DNA of 36,259 nt, taken from positions 1-36,259 of the forward strand of contig JADHOM010000022.1 in NCBI GenBank assembly GCA_016778985.1, in the 5' to 3' direction. The stretch comes from Alphaproteobacteria bacterium. Its GTDB lineage: Bacteria; Pseudomonadota; Alphaproteobacteria; Puniceispirillales; UBA1172. The notes below the pieces were generated by a model. The model worked only from the letters and a program-made list of their open reading frames with translations. It had not been told where the DNA came from and made no database searches. The position numbers were made by a program, and so were the translations under genes. Below, piece after piece: positions 2,371 through 7,375 of this stretch. The first letter of the stretch is position 1; every line of letters starts with the position of its first letter.

Positions 2371-3528
2371 ATGATCAGCAAAATGCGTTTCATCATCACT
2401 ACTGTATCTTGCATGATGGCCACATCAGTATTTGCTGGCGGCCTCCCAGGTGCAGATGAAAACAACTCTACAGAAGATACTAGCAGCGCTATAAGCTCCA
2501 CTGATGCTTCAACAGATAGCAACTCACCTCTAAATACAAAATCTTCATCCGGCAATTCATCGCCTGAAACCAGTGCAACATCACAAGCCTCAGGCGCAAG
2601 CAATGATGATAATAACAGTGATGATGAGGGCTTTGACGCCATTGAGGATGATCCCCTGATCGTTGATGCCACCGCCATTATGGATGATGACGGCATGGGA
2701 GAAGTATCAGTTCAGTGGCAAATGCTGTCCAAAGACGGCGGCTGGATGAATTTGACCGGTGCCACTCAACAATCTTTCACCCCTCGGCAAATCCATGTTG
2801 GCCATCGTTTGCGCGTTGTCATCACATATGTTGATGGGCAGGGTAATCTAGAAACCTTGATCAGCCCTCGTTCTAGCGAAGTGAAAAATGTCAATGACAA
2901 GCCAACTGGCGCCCCTATTCTGCTTGGTAACCCGTTTGAAGAAGACGCGCTAGTTGTCGATACTAGTACCATTTCAGACGAAGATGGTATTGGCTCATAT
3001 GAAGTCATCTGGCAAAGATCATCAACAAAAACAAACTGGCAAACATTTCCAAATGCAACCAGCGAAGTGTTGCGGTTAACGCAGTCACATGTTGGATTTT
3101 CCTACCGCTCGGTTATCACCTATATGGATAATCAAGGCACTCGTGAGATTTTGATTTCCAATCCATCTGAAACCGTTGCCAATGTTGACGACCCTGTTGA
3201 AGGTGAAGTCATTATTGTCGGTAAAGCGCTTGAAGGATCAGCATTATCTGTGACTACATCTGGCGTTTCTGATGAAGACGGAATTGCCAGCCTTTCCATT
3301 AGCTGGGAAGCATCAAAAGATGGCCGCACATGGCGGGCGATTGATGGCTCCAATTTCAACCAAATTGCACTTAATCAATCGCATGTTGGGCTTCAAATTC
3401 GGGCGAAGGCCAGTGTAGTTGATACCTTTGGCGTTGAGACACTGATTTATAGTCAGCCAAGCAACACAGTCAAAAACGTAAATAATAAGCCAAGTGGCTC
3501 AATTAACGTTCGCCGCGTTGGCAGCTAA
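2371..3528 (+). CDS. Secreted protein with three Ig-like repeats
   Basis: This 385-residue protein starts with a Sec signal peptide: a basic start, a hydrophobic core and a likely cut after VFA, around residue 22. A Ser/Thr/Asp-rich low-complexity linker follows (about 28-88), then three diverged repeats of about 98 residues (about 85-180, 181-278 and 279-376). Each repeat carries a D-E/D-DG-I/M-G/A loop, a central Trp, the motif HVG, a Y-x-D-x-QG-type strand and a closing NVN/D-x-P-x-G linker. This pattern is the Ig/cadherin-like repeat found in many copies in large bacterial adhesins and RTX-type surface proteins. Three copies, with no visible anchor, secretion signal domain or catalytic domain, is a short version. 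It probably ends up in the periplasm or outside the cell. An AGGG about 9 nt upstream supports the start; M5 is a possible alternative. A terminator follows. Confidence 0.75.
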   Translation: MISKMRFIITTVSCMMATSVFAGGLPGADENNSTEDTSSAISSTDASTDSNSPLNTKSSSGNSSPETSATSQASGASNDDNNSDDEGFDAIEDDPLIVDATAIMDDDGMGEVSVQWQMLSKDGGWMNLTGATQQSFTPRQIHVGHRLRVVITYVDGQGNLETLISPRSSEVKNVNDKPTGAPILLGNPFEEDALVVDTSTISDEDGIGSYEVIWQRSSTKTNWQTFPNATSEVLRLTQSHVGFSYRSVITYMDNQGTREILISNPSETVANVDDPVEGEVIIVGKALEGSALSVTTSGVSDEDGIASLSISWEASKDGRTWRAIDGSNFNQIALNQSHVGLQIRAKASVVDTFGVETLIYSQPSNTVKNVNNKPSGSINVRRVGS

Positions 3529-3816: not shown

Positions 3817-4116
3817 ATGAGCCATATCATTGAACCCCTTCGGGAAGACGGTAAAGTCATTCCTTTTCGCCATCCTAACGATGATGTCCATCATACCAAA
3901 ACAAGCACGATTGCTGCCCTTGTCGCCGTTACAATCATACATGATAATTGCATTTCTGCCGAAGATAAATTACTGGAAATTATTGAAAAAAGTGGGGAAG
4001 CAGAAGTGTTAAACAACGAAGATGCGTTTTCTGAACTGGGGTTATGTCATACAGATGAGCCTGTCGACCAATTAACTCCTGTCAATGATAATTCTCATCC
4101 GGTGCACCTCATCTAG
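3817..4116 (+). CDS. Unrecognised 99-residue protein
   Basis: I do not recognise this small soluble protein. The N-terminus carries a VIPFRHP motif, the middle is a helical, mildly hydrophobic stretch (about residues 29-43, TSTIAALVAVTIIHD), then comes an acidic helix (LLEIIEKSGEAE), and the tail is polar. No signal peptide is evident. Translation is well supported by an AGAGGAG site 7 nt before the ATG. The gene has its own near-consensus promoter and a strong terminator, so it is a real single-gene unit, probably well expressed. It sits between the secreted repeat protein and the Sia phosphatase gene. A role with either is only a guess. Confidence 0.7.
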   Translation: MSHIIEPLREDGKVIPFRHPNDDVHHTKTSTIAALVAVTIIHDNCISAEDKLLEIIEKSGEAEVLNNEDAFSELGLCHTDEPVDQLTPVNDNSHPVHLI

Positions 4117-4297: not shown

Positions 4298-5287
4298 ATG
4301 GATTTATTTCACATTGATTTATCTCACTCTCTTGGCCTTTTTATCATCATGGTCATGCTGGTCTTGACGAATATCTTTATGGTTATCGTTTATTTTCGGA
4401 ATATCAGAGAAACCCAGACATTACATCAGCAAATCATTGCCACCAGCAAAGGGCTGGAAGCGGTAATTGATGTGCGAACGAAAAAGCTACGGCAAGCGAA
4501 CACAGCCATATCTGTATCTATTGATTATGCTGCTCTGCTTCAGCGCAATCTGCTGCCACCTCAGCATCTGCTCGAAGAGCAAATCGGTGAAGTCGCAGTT
4601 ATTTGGCAACCAAAAGATGTCGTCAGTGGTGATTTCTACTGGTCTGGACAGATTGGCACAAAACAGGTCTTAGTTGCTATGGATTGCACAGGTCATGGTG
4701 TTCCTGGGGCGTTTATGACCATGATTGCTCATTCCGCGCTTGAACAAATCCAATCACACCAAGATGCCCTCGTCGATATGGGAAAGCCAGAACTAAACGC
4801 AACCAGTATATTACATTTGCTTCATGACTGGGTTTATCGGCTACTTCATCAAAACAAATTAAACCATAGATTAAATGGCATTGATGCAGGGGTAATTGTT
4901 ATGGCTGATGATCGCCAAGAGTTAGACTTTGCTGGCGCGCATATGGATATATTTACTATCTCTCCTGATGGGTTAGCGCATCGCCATAAGGGCGATAAAA
5001 TCTCATTAGGCTATGGCAACACAGTGTTTCCATCTGTACAAAATATCAAATTTGATATTGATCCAGGGCAAATTTTTGCCTTAACAACCGATGGCTTACT
5101 ATCGCAGCCAGGGTCCGAGAAAGCGATAGGGTTTGGGTATCAGCGTTTTGTGAATACATTAAAACAAGCAAAAGCAACTTCTCCTGCCAGCATAGCCAAA
5201 TATATCATGCAACAATTGCGGGAATGGCAAGGTAAGGAAACCCGCCGAGATGATGTTTTGCTAATCTTAATTCAACCCAGACCATAG
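4298..5287 (+). CDS. siaA: SiaA-like PP2C/SpoIIE-type protein phosphatase
   Basis: This 329-residue membrane-tethered phosphatase probably dephosphorylates the neighbouring SiaC. One N-terminal membrane helix (about 11-33) is followed by a coiled-coil-like linker (about 36-70), and a SpoIIE/PP2C domain fills the rest. Metal-binding motifs are intact: VSGDFYW (Asp112), DCTGHGVPGA (Asp129), the TTDG segment and a final RRDDV near residue 316. The ISVSIDYAALLQ stretch before the catalytic domain is typical of SiaA-type phosphatases. The Pseudomonas SiaA is about twice as long, with a periplasmic sensor and HAMP domain. Those are absent here, so signal input must differ. AAGGA 8 nt upstream supports the start. 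The gene is convergent with siaB-siaC, with 46 bp between the ends and no clear terminator. Confidence 0.82.
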   Translation: MDLFHIDLSHSLGLFIIMVMLVLTNIFMVIVYFRNIRETQTLHQQIIATSKGLEAVIDVRTKKLRQANTAISVSIDYAALLQRNLLPPQHLLEEQIGEVAVIWQPKDVVSGDFYWSGQIGTKQVLVAMDCTGHGVPGAFMTMIAHSALEQIQSHQDALVDMGKPELNATSILHLLHDWVYRLLHQNKLNHRLNGIDAGVIVMADDRQELDFAGAHMDIFTISPDGLAHRHKGDKISLGYGNTVFPSVQNIKFDIDPGQIFALTTDGLLSQPGSEKAIGFGYQRFVNTLKQAKATSPASIAKYIMQQLREWQGKETRRDDVLLILIQPRP

Positions 5288-5333
5288 CCATAACCGCCTC
5301 ATGATAGCTAATGCGACCTAATCATATGCTGGC

Positions 5334-5729
5334 TTAGGCATCATCCCTTTCGTTAATCCTAATATGAAATTGCAATCTATTGACCTCTTCGGCAATATCC
5401 TCAGCAAACTCCTGCATAATATCATCATCCGAAATACAGAACCAATCCACATGGATTTCATGCCCTTTATTGGCTTGCGCCTCAAGCCTATTTAGCATTT
5501 CCAAAAGCTGACGGGCTGAACTGGAATTGAAGTAACTTAAATTAATGGTGCAGCGCAACCTGCATCCCGGTTGACTAAAATAGTGATCCAACGATTCAAA
5601 TACGGGATCATAAAAGCGGTAAATTTCTTCGGGATAAGACTCCCCTTCAATTAAAAGGGTTTGGGTATCAGGATTTAGCTCAATACGCGGTGTTCTTAAT
5701 GTTGCTTCACGAATAAAAACATCTGTCAT
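5334..5729 (-). CDS. siaC: SiaC family (DUF1987) regulatory phosphoprotein
   Basis: This 131-residue protein matches the DUF1987/SiaC family along its length: TPRIELNPDT near the start, the SYPEE-x-x-FYDPV segment, a central LSYFNSSSAR strand-helix junction and an acidic C-terminal helix. In Pseudomonas aeruginosa SiaC is phosphorylated on Thr68 of an N-T-S-S motif by SiaB and dephosphorylated by SiaA; the unphosphorylated form activates the diguanylate cyclase SiaD. The equivalent residue here is Ser69, still phosphorylatable. An in-frame GTG at 5741 overlaps the siaB stop by one base, but the ATG at 5729 gives better agreement with the family's length and numbering, so I prefer it. The gene is translationally coupled to siaB. 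No siaD is in the window. Confidence 0.87.
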   Translation of the reverse strand: MTDVFIREATLRTPRIELNPDTQTLLIEGESYPEEIYRFYDPVFESLDHYFSQPGCRLRCTINLSYFNSSSARQLLEMLNRLEAQANKGHEIHVDWFCISDDDIMQEFAEDIAEEVNRLQFHIRINERDDA

Positions 5730-5740
5730 AATAATACTCA

Positions 5741-6307
5741 CTAATATGATATTACTCTGATTGTAAAAAACATTGCTCCATTTTCAGCTGGATCAAACAG
5801 GTATTGTGGTGGTGATGAGGATCGCCGCATGATTTGTATCAAACCAAGATTAGCCCCCTTACTTGAGGTAGCTAAGGGTTGACGAATCGTTTTCATGAAT
5901 AATTGGCGCAATTCATCTGATGTTAAGGCTGACAACATATCGAGCCGCTGACGTAACAACTCCGCCTGCTGGTGGGTAACATAATTGCCGCTGACAATAC
6001 TAATTGCATCATTTTCATGGCTAATGGCTAGCATCCCATAACTAGGATCATTGCCATTAGGGGCTGTCAGGTGAACCACTTCACTACCATACCTTATCAT
6101 ATTCTGCATTATTTCCACATAAAGCGAAAATGCACGAAGTTGTTGCTTGGGGGGGAGTGGTATGCCGCACATATATTGGCGTAATTTCTGACCAAACTGA
6201 TCCAGGGTTTCTTCAGATAAAATGCCATTATAACTCAGAAAGCAATTCTGAGCTGTCGCCATAATATTCTTCGCTTTAACGTATTCTAAACCCGCTACCT
6301 GCTTCAT
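5741..6307 (-). CDS. siaB: SiaB family (DUF6272) protein kinase
   Basis: This 188-residue soluble protein matches the SiaB/DUF6272 family, an atypical histidine-kinase-like fold that phosphorylates SiaC. A GHKL-type N-box is visible as EIMQNMIRYG (Glu65, Asn69), and the C-terminal half holds the conserved GANLGLIQIMRRS segment close to where a G-box would lie. It has no membrane helix or sensor domain, like the Pseudomonas protein. GAGG about 8 nt before the ATG supports the start. It is the first gene of the siaB-siaC pair and faces the acyltransferase gene across a 234-bp spacer. The opposing action of this kinase and the SiaA phosphatase on SiaC is inferred from family knowledge. Confidence 0.83.
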   Translation of the reverse strand: MKQVAGLEYVKAKNIMATAQNCFLSYNGILSEETLDQFGQKLRQYMCGIPLPPKQQLRAFSLYVEIMQNMIRYGSEVVHLTAPNGNDPSYGMLAISHENDAISIVSGNYVTHQQAELLRQRLDMLSALTSDELRQLFMKTIRQPLATSSKGANLGLIQIMRRSSSPPQYLFDPAENGAMFFTIRVISY

Positions 6308-6541: not shown

Positions 6542-7375
6542 ATGCGGCTGACCGATAACCCACAAACTGTTCCTATTTTTTCTTTTGCCAATGGTGAGCT
6601 AGGACCAATAGCTAGTCGAATTATTCGCGGCCTTGAGCGTTTTACAGGTCAACCGCGTATAAAGAAAATTTATCTCGATTATATCAATGATGATCGACCT
6701 GATAGTCTGTTTTGGCAAGATGCTGTTGATCGGCTCAATATTTCTGTCAACCTAAAGTATGATGATGCCGCATATATTCCGGCAAGTGGCCAGCTGCTTG
6801 TTATTGCCAATCATCCTTTTGGTGTTGTTGATGGACTAGTGCTGTGCTCTGAATTATCCAAAATTAGGTCAGATTATAAGATCATCACACATGAAGTATT
6901 GCGCCAAGCTCCTGCTGTTATGCATCAGATTCTACCAATCAATTTTTCTGAAACAGCGGAAGCCCTAGCCACCAATATGCAAACCCGCCATGATGCCATG
7001 AAACAGTTGCAGCATAATGGTGCGCTTATTCTATTTCCATCTGGTGCTATCTCATTAGCGCCCCGAATTATTGGCACTGCACGCGATGCGCAATGGAAAA
7101 CATTTGTTGCGAAACTAGCGCAGATTGAGGACACGACCATTCTGCCTGTATTCTTTGACGGTCAAAATAGCATTAGCTATATGATGGCGCGGCGGCTCAG
7201 CCAAACGCTTGGTTATTCGTTGATGTTTAGAGAGATTTGCCGGCTCATGGGGCAACAGATCAATGTCACGATTAGAAAGCCAATCTCTAACAACGTCCTC
7301 AGGCAATTTAATAACCGCACTAAGATGACAGAATATTTAAGGAATTTAACTTATGGGCAGGATAGTAGCACTTAA
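6542..7375 (+). CDS. PlsC-like lysophospholipid acyltransferase family protein
   Basis: This 277-residue protein belongs to the acyl-CoA/ACP:lysophospholipid acyltransferase superfamily. The catalytic motif is NHPFGVVDG (His91, Asp97), a spacing of five residues between His and Asp that is typical of the NHPxGxxDG subfamily, not of classic PlsC (HX4D). The later block LILFPSGAIS (about residues 160-169) matches the glycerol-3-phosphate-binding FPEG-type motif. The domain should sit on the cytoplasmic face of the inner membrane and acylate a lysolipid, such as lysophosphatidate or lyso-ornithine lipid. The exact acceptor is unknown. It ends 10 bp from the end of thiN, which is convergent. Confidence 0.78.
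   Translation: MRLTDNPQTVPIFSFANGELGPIASRIIRGLERFTGQPRIKKIYLDYINDDRPDSLFWQDAVDRLNISVNLKYDDAAYIPASGQLLVIANHPFGVVDGLVLCSELSKIRSDYKIITHEVLRQAPAVMHQILPINFSETAEALATNMQTRHDAMKQLQHNGALILFPSGAISLAPRIIGTARDAQWKTFVAKLAQIEDTTILPVFFDGQNSISYMMARRLSQTLGYSLMFREICRLMGQQINVTIRKPISNNVLRQFNNRTKMTEYLRNLTYGQDSST

Follow-up and report, generated by a model that had tools for sequence, protein, structure and literature searches.

What does SiaC regulate in a genome that appears to encode no diguanylate cyclase? The question is raised by a siaABC locus in a 36,259-nucleotide stretch of DNA (the window) from a marine bacterium of the order SAR116, whose genome assembly comprises 2.10 Mb in 43 contigs and is 98.63% complete. 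In the literature found, SiaC, a DUF1987 protein, is an activator of a diguanylate cyclase; in its available text, one paper suggests a modulating role for DUF1987 proteins towards the proteins adjacent to them, naming no other enzyme class (PMC8457831). The first-pass annotation had noted a PP2C phosphatase, a DUF6272 kinase and a DUF1987 protein side by side with no GGDEF protein in the window, and had proposed that SiaC controls either some other target or a distant cyclase.

The three genes are found as annotated, and all three family assignments hold in profile searches: the phosphatase matches PF07228 (SpoIIE/PP2C, 1.6e-19), the kinase PF19788 and the SiaC protein PF09345 (Table 1). The gene arrangement had also been read correctly; siaA converges on siaB and siaC, which lie on the opposite strand and overlap by one base. 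In the family scans each gene is placed in its family, yet remains below the P. aeruginosa equivalog cut-off, with 194 bits against 700 for SiaA, 77 against 150 for SiaC and 86 against 225 for SiaB; the SiaB-family model NF038262 gives 140 bits against a cut-off of 85.

Table 1. Features of the siaABC locus and its flanks (positions in the window).
Feature	Position	Strand	Remarks
Left flanking gene	3817..4116	+	99 aa, without family match; adjoins the right flank in relatives without siaABC
siaA-like PP2C (SpoIIE) phosphatase	4298..5287	+	329 aa; short form, lacking HAMP and the periplasmic sensor
Hydrophobic N-terminal segment of the phosphatase	4331..4396	+	Single, likely membrane; about residues 12-33, by eye
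siaA-siaC gap	5288..5333	.	46 bp; class III cyclase and/or ~100-aa gene here in many relatives
siaC (DUF1987/SiaC-family phosphoprotein)	5334..5741	-	135 aa; PF09345 5.5e-36, PDB 6k4f 8.4e-10
Ser73 codon of siaC	5523..5525	-	Counterpart of phospho-acceptor Thr68, by alignment to 6k4f
siaB-like kinase (DUF6272, SiaB family)	5741..6307	-	188 aa; PF19788 3.5e-30, NF038262 over cut-off
Right flanking gene, acyltransferase	6542..7375	+	PF19576 2e-13

According to the available text of PMC7647112, P. aeruginosa SiaA has a sensor, two membrane spans and a HAMP domain, and the phospho-acceptor of SiaC is T68. Ser73 would provide the window SiaC with a phosphorylatable residue at the equivalent position. 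The NCBIfam SiaA model is matched by the window phosphatase only in its C-terminal part (residues 41-323 on profile positions 374-653 of 658), and a Pfam scan gave no match to a HAMP or sensor domain, in agreement with the earlier remark that these regions are missing. SiaA orthologues are 331 and 350 aa long in two congeners and 493-818 aa in the other SAR116 loci having one. Among the P. aeruginosa relatives, structures have been solved for SiaC (6k4f and 6kko, with 6kkp and 7e6g) and for the PP2C part of SiaA (6k4e). The window phosphatase matches 6k4e at 1.2e-37 and retains the GDF, GHG, TDG and RDD stretches, which we take to be the PP2C metal-site motifs; the glycine preceding GDF is replaced by serine in the window SiaA only, among three congeners. 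Of the features of SiaABCD, the window thus has a SiaC-family protein, a SiaB-family kinase and the SiaA PP2C catalytic domain, and it lacks the SiaA sensor and HAMP, a single siaABCD operon and, genome-wide, a GGDEF protein of the SiaD kind. Elsewhere in the window (2371-3528) a secreted-looking protein with units that appear repeated by eye is encoded, for which Ig-type Pfam matches are sub-threshold only.

When the complete assembly, the window with it, was searched in six frames, no GGDEF match was returned, confirming and extending the first-pass observation, and neither EAL nor PilZ was matched in this genome; the GGDEF search was positive in 8 of 14 control genomes. At the level of the order 136 genomes were searched, 43 of them good. 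GGDEF was matched at E<=0.001 in 10 of the 136, over the cut-off in one, and in none of the 43 good genomes. The sole match over the cut-off is a 54-residue fragment at a contig end (L050) of a 77%-complete genome (G132). The nine others score 19-20 bits, below the cut-off, in frames of 724 aa (eight) or 451 aa (one), and are read as cross-matches, an assignment extrapolated for eight of them from the one scanned with Pfam (L022), which is a class III cyclase. EAL and PilZ are matched in none of the 136 genomes. On these searches the best reading is that the SiaABC systems of the order do not serve c-di-GMP signalling, and the distant cyclase of the first-pass annotation, if of the SiaD kind, finds no support: the genome-wide GGDEF search found no siaD homologue elsewhere. 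Since SiaC is here found without a diguanylate cyclase, some other protein must be, or once have been, its target.

For the lineage, the relatives suggest a candidate. PF09345 is matched in 18 of the 136 genomes of the order, in 17 of them over the cut-off, and 18 loci were compared (the window and L031-L047); two contigs with weak matches, an internal stop and flagellar-looking neighbours by eye (L048, L049) and the one with the GGDEF fragment (L050) are outside this count. The siaC locus of the congener G006 is 84% identical to that of the window. The commonest SAR116 layout is a rhodanese gene, siaB, siaC, a cyclase gene, a gene of about 100 aa and then siaA in convergent orientation. In 10 of the 18 loci the sia genes are adjoined, usually at the position of siaD, by a member of one cluster of CyaB-like class III cyclases of about 330-340 aa; Pfam scans of three of these cyclases all gave PF00211, and nine of the ten were aligned. 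One cyclase lies beside siaC and not downstream of it (L044), one is partly N-masked (L035), and in one locus siaC is cut by the contig end (L047). No adjacent cyclase is found in the window, L031 and L032, which belong to one genus, nor in L039, L041, L043, L045 and L046. A PF00211 gene with an SD stalk (see below) by siaC is accordingly a feature of SAR116 relatives and not of the window, and the suggestion that SiaC has some other target stands for the lineage. By sequence, the L034 cyclase is matched best in the PDB by CyaB (3r5g, 7e-52), and CyaB was also the top match when the predicted fold of another siaC-linked cyclase of the relatives was compared. Eight of the nine aligned SAR116 cyclases have Gln at the T-x-D-K/Q position where CyaB has Lys. 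This position presumably bears on ATP versus GTP use, so the nucleotide of the SAR116 cyclases could be either.

The loci of the order vary in other respects too. In a 99%-complete genome (G078) SiaB and SiaC are fused in one 344-aa ORF (L043:6474-7508), which is adjoined by the ~100-aa gene; this genome gave no match to GGDEF, CNB or a class III cyclase. Diverged siaB-siaC pairs without adjacent siaA occur in two SAR116 genomes (L045:6749-7706 in G133 and L046:943-1879 in G128), the latter being the second pair of its genome. Several SAR116 loci (for example L031:2026-2469 and L033:150-572), but not the window, have a gene of the rhodanese type ahead of siaB. The ~100-aa gene beside the module is seen at L034:8447-8749 and in nine similar loci, and the one copy scanned has no Pfam match. 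A profile search matched it in 76 of the 136 genomes, mostly weakly, so it is a member of a wider family, which was not found in the window's genome or in G006 and is represented in the congener G009 by a diverged member elsewhere in the genome. Its AlphaFold model (pLDDT 66.7 from 3 sequences) is too weak for use. Two near-complete genomes having both the cyclase and the ~100-aa gene (G119, G134) gave no CNB-domain match, and the same is true of G099, where the copy of the ~100-aa gene has an in-frame stop.

On a wider scale, a contig scan with a SiaC alignment confirmed at least 511 siaC loci, and the best 80 of these were named and compared. Because the search patterns favour SAR116-like SiaC (the P. 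aeruginosa locus is outside the 80), frequencies among the best 80 of at least 511 are not unbiased: the gene after siaC encodes a histidine-kinase-like protein in 35 loci, a class III cyclase in 28, a GGDEF protein in 5, SiaA in 2 and other proteins in 8, and there is none in 2. One gene was classed per locus, by HMM or motif, Pfam being used for five only; these were HATPase in L123, HATPase with CheX in L122 and L180, PF00211 in L154 and GGDEF in L175. Enzymes of different class share an N-terminal stalk motif of approximately RLVRxSDRxxxxL. A 50-residue profile of the stalk, trained on 23 of the 28 siaC-linked class III cyclases, was run on 3585 ORFs and matched 72 of them at E<1e-3, in 71 of these best 80 of at least 511 loci. 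The matches comprise 26 cyclases, which are the training class, and, from outside the training, 37 kinase-like, 7 GGDEF and 2 HATPase-CheX proteins; the 72 form 13 clusters at 50% identity, so the independent cases are fewer than 72. All 72 adjoin siaC or siaB. The gene already chosen as downstream partner accounts for 68 of them, and the other four are a GGDEF gene upstream of siaB (L148), a second GGDEF gene (L134) and two kinase ORFs with long starts (L140, L152). No stalk match was obtained in nine loci: L114 and L115 (both of the window's genus), L118 (masked), L119, L139, L167, L176, L178 and L188; L118 and L139 hold the two of the 28 cyclases that the profile leaves unmatched. The siaC-linked HATPase-CheX proteins, of about 716 aa and with the docking stalk, are found in a Campylobacterales locus (L122:2200-4350) and a gammaproteobacterial one (L180:6369-8516).

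The stalk motif appears to coincide with the SiaC-binding site of SiaD. In the available text of PMC8457831, the SiaC contacts on SiaD are R74, K77, V78, R80, I81, S82, D83, R84, Y85, Q86, M88, R90 and D91. When a profile built from 28 stalks belonging to different enzyme classes, SiaD excluded (A3), was compared with 177,635 PDB sequences, SiaD (7e6g) came first (E 0.015, 18.2 bits), with KVARISDRYQQ aligned to RLvRlSDRnea at the SiaC-contact residues. As the next match is a designed helix at E 0.054, the SiaD statistic alone is modest, and the coincidence of position with the SiaC contacts is the stronger point. A second piece of SiaD, RLERIARISD, near the distal site, matched insignificantly. 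All 28 stalks have the Asp of the motif, as do all of 19 aligned cyclases. In an AlphaFold2 model of the L130 cyclase (19 sequences, pLDDT 81.8), residues 23-73 are predicted to form one helix with the SD at 51-52, resembling the helical stalk described for P. aeruginosa SiaD. As a control, class III cyclase ORFs that do not adjoin siaC were inspected (43 ORFs in loci L051-L080 and L109-L113), and none has the motif; it was found in no ORF of the window either. Across 22 SAR116 genomes, the only proteins matched confidently by the stalk profile (E 4e-12 or better) were six siaC-linked cyclases, all other matches being at E 0.078 or worse; the seventh siaC-linked cyclase of this set (G119) is N-masked.

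In the window's own genome the best stalk match has E 0.51, and no confident match was obtained there or in the congeners G006 and G009. With both a partner gene and a confident docking-stalk match missing from the genome, the module looks orphaned, although a diverged partner could escape the 50-residue profile. The siaA-siaC slot lacks a cyclase in G006 and G009 as well, and G009 retains siaABC with no GGDEF and no PF00211 match. The genes that flank the locus adjoin one another in G001 and G004 with no siaABC match between them, the module having been lost or never present, and G005 has the same arrangement with the left flank cut at the contig end. SiaC was not found in G007, where a contig break is possible: its contig ends inside the flanking acyltransferase gene. 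In G003 a short contig ends at a rhodanese match by the acyltransferase gene, and with such contig ends the missing siaC of these two genomes is not counted as loss. G006 and G007 have CyaB-like cyclases not linked to siaC, which were considered as a displaced SiaC partner and rejected: they have another N-terminal stretch and no confident stalk match, and in G007 there was no SiaC match to go with them. Three class III cyclase proteins remain in the window's genome, besides three CNB-domain matches; two of these cyclases have TPR and the third has a 2Fe-2S domain. On one contig of this genome (C1, L109:8251-12192) the 2Fe-2S-linked cyclase is clustered with a cyclase-TPR protein and a small protein that has a CNB domain, and the matching contig in G006 and G007 carries a CyaB-like cyclase.

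Selection on the trio was assessed between the window and G006, the one usable pair, dS being saturated or high in every other pair computed. The dN/dS values are 0.34 for siaA, 0.38 for siaB and 0.60 for siaC. The pooled value of 0.38 (bootstrap 0.30-0.49) is about four times that of nine neighbours (0.091, 0.076-0.108; Fisher p 2e-21 on the difference counts of this one pair), and the changes are spread over both branches. An in-frame stop is found in siaB of G006 at codon 104 of the frame read (L032:8233-8235), with no N nearby, in one metagenome assembly. The idea of relaxed selection in all three genes has to be tempered: where pairs with more complete systems were compared, siaA and siaC again evolve faster than most neighbours and siaB does not, so the acceleration of siaB is the distinctive change. 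Selection is not gone, as dN/dS is well below 1 and neither the window nor G009 has a disrupted ORF among the three. The P. aeruginosa SiaC contact residues are partly kept in the order, four of the 14 being identical in the window. Compared with cyclase-linked SAR116 SiaCs, the window SiaC has the usual residue at 10 of the 14 contact positions and deviates at 10, 75, 79 and 114 (P. aeruginosa numbers).

Taken at the level of the lineage, these data make it very probable that SiaABC drives a class III cyclase via a docking stalk of the SiaD type. The ancestral output in the order would be the class III nucleotide cyclase encoded next to siaC. Unphosphorylated SiaC would dock on the SD motif of the long N-terminal helix of the cyclase, as on the Pseudomonas SiaD stalk; phosphorylation by SiaB would release it from the cyclase, and SiaA, controlled by its sensor, would dephosphorylate it. 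The sequences themselves show the gene content, a stalk motif common to several partner classes, the lack of any detectable partner or c-di-GMP protein, and relaxed constraint in one pair. From them we infer the binding, the activation with its sign, a loss of function, and the direction in which the window's genus has changed. There, both the cyclase and the SiaA sensor would have been lost, leaving an intact, less constrained trio with no recognisable partner. For the window copy itself we lean towards a switch that has been orphaned, is probably eroding and most likely on its way out, and that ancestrally acted on a class III cyclase.

The main competitor, which we regard as unlikely but worth keeping in mind, is that the trio is functional and rewired, with SiaC regulating an unlinked protein via an interface unlike the SD stalk. 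The intact ORFs, the preserved PP2C metal-site stretches and Ser73, and the shared residues at 10 of 14 contact positions would fit this, and another output is made plausible by G009, G078 and G131 (97-99% complete), which have SiaABC but neither a GGDEF nor a class III cyclase match among those listed. Against it stand the raised dN/dS, the stop in the siaB of a congener and the want of a candidate: the genome has no confident stalk match and no member of the ~100-aa family, which is found beside siaC in G078 and G131.

That SiaC acts on one of the three remaining class III cyclases without the canonical motif is improbable. The ancestral partner would have been of the same class and three CNB-domain matches accompany these cyclases in the genome, but all three are of other architecture (one 2Fe-2S, two TPR), none has the stalk, and G009 keeps SiaABC with no class III cyclase match. 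An assembly artefact, in which the organism has a partner missing from the assembly, is more doubtful still; the assembly is split into 43 contigs and reaches 98.6% completeness, yet the locus is contiguous within one contig and the slot is empty in G006 and G009 too. A classical SiaABCD with an unlinked SiaD is the least credible of all and was rejected: family membership of SiaA, SiaB and SiaC is all that speaks for it, while GGDEF is absent from the 98.6%-complete genome and from the 43 good genomes of the order, and EAL and PilZ from all 136.

In a wider perspective, we consider it likely that SiaC is an output-agnostic phospho-adaptor: with one SD docking helix carried by enzymes of at least three classes, the same switch could feed cAMP/cGMP, c-di-GMP or phospho-transfer signalling, and the window's genus would show such a switch after loss of its output. 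The three classes would be class III nucleotide cyclases, diguanylate cyclases and histidine-kinase-like proteins, some with CheX. A docking motif common to them would allow SiaC targets to be predicted from sequence in many genomes, and it makes the proposal testable with purified proteins. The locus would also illustrate how a phospho-switch can pass from one signalling system to another and end up stranded. In the mostly open-access text available, PMC8457831, PMC7647112, PMC9239204 and PMC12834913 included, no paper was found that ties SiaC to class III cyclases or histidine kinases, nor was literature found on SAR116 and cyclic di-GMP or on a class III cyclase with an antagonist. For Campylobacterota, a c-di-GMP enzyme and a chemoreceptor have been proposed as outputs of such switches (PMC9239204, available text).

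Among known systems, the HsbA-HsbD and BgrV-BgrR partner switches resemble Sia in that a STAS-type phosphoprotein controls a cyclase (PMC8457831, available text); they differ in that the outputs there are diguanylate cyclases. P. aeruginosa CyaB (3r5g), a class III adenylate cyclase, is similar to the siaC-linked cyclases of the window's relatives in its catalytic domain, whereas the relatives' enzyme has an N-terminal stalk of the SiaC type with no other domain found, and is absent from the window's genome. The closest parallel is SiaABCD of P. aeruginosa. The window differs from it in having siaA on the opposite strand, a SiaA without sensor and HAMP, Ser and not Thr at the phospho-site, scores that do not reach the equivalog cut-offs, and a genome without a SiaD or GGDEF match. 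The likeness lies in the SiaC-family phosphoprotein, the SiaB-family kinase and the PP2C phosphatase of the window, and in the SiaC-contact motif of SiaD, which recurs in the partners of the window's relatives.
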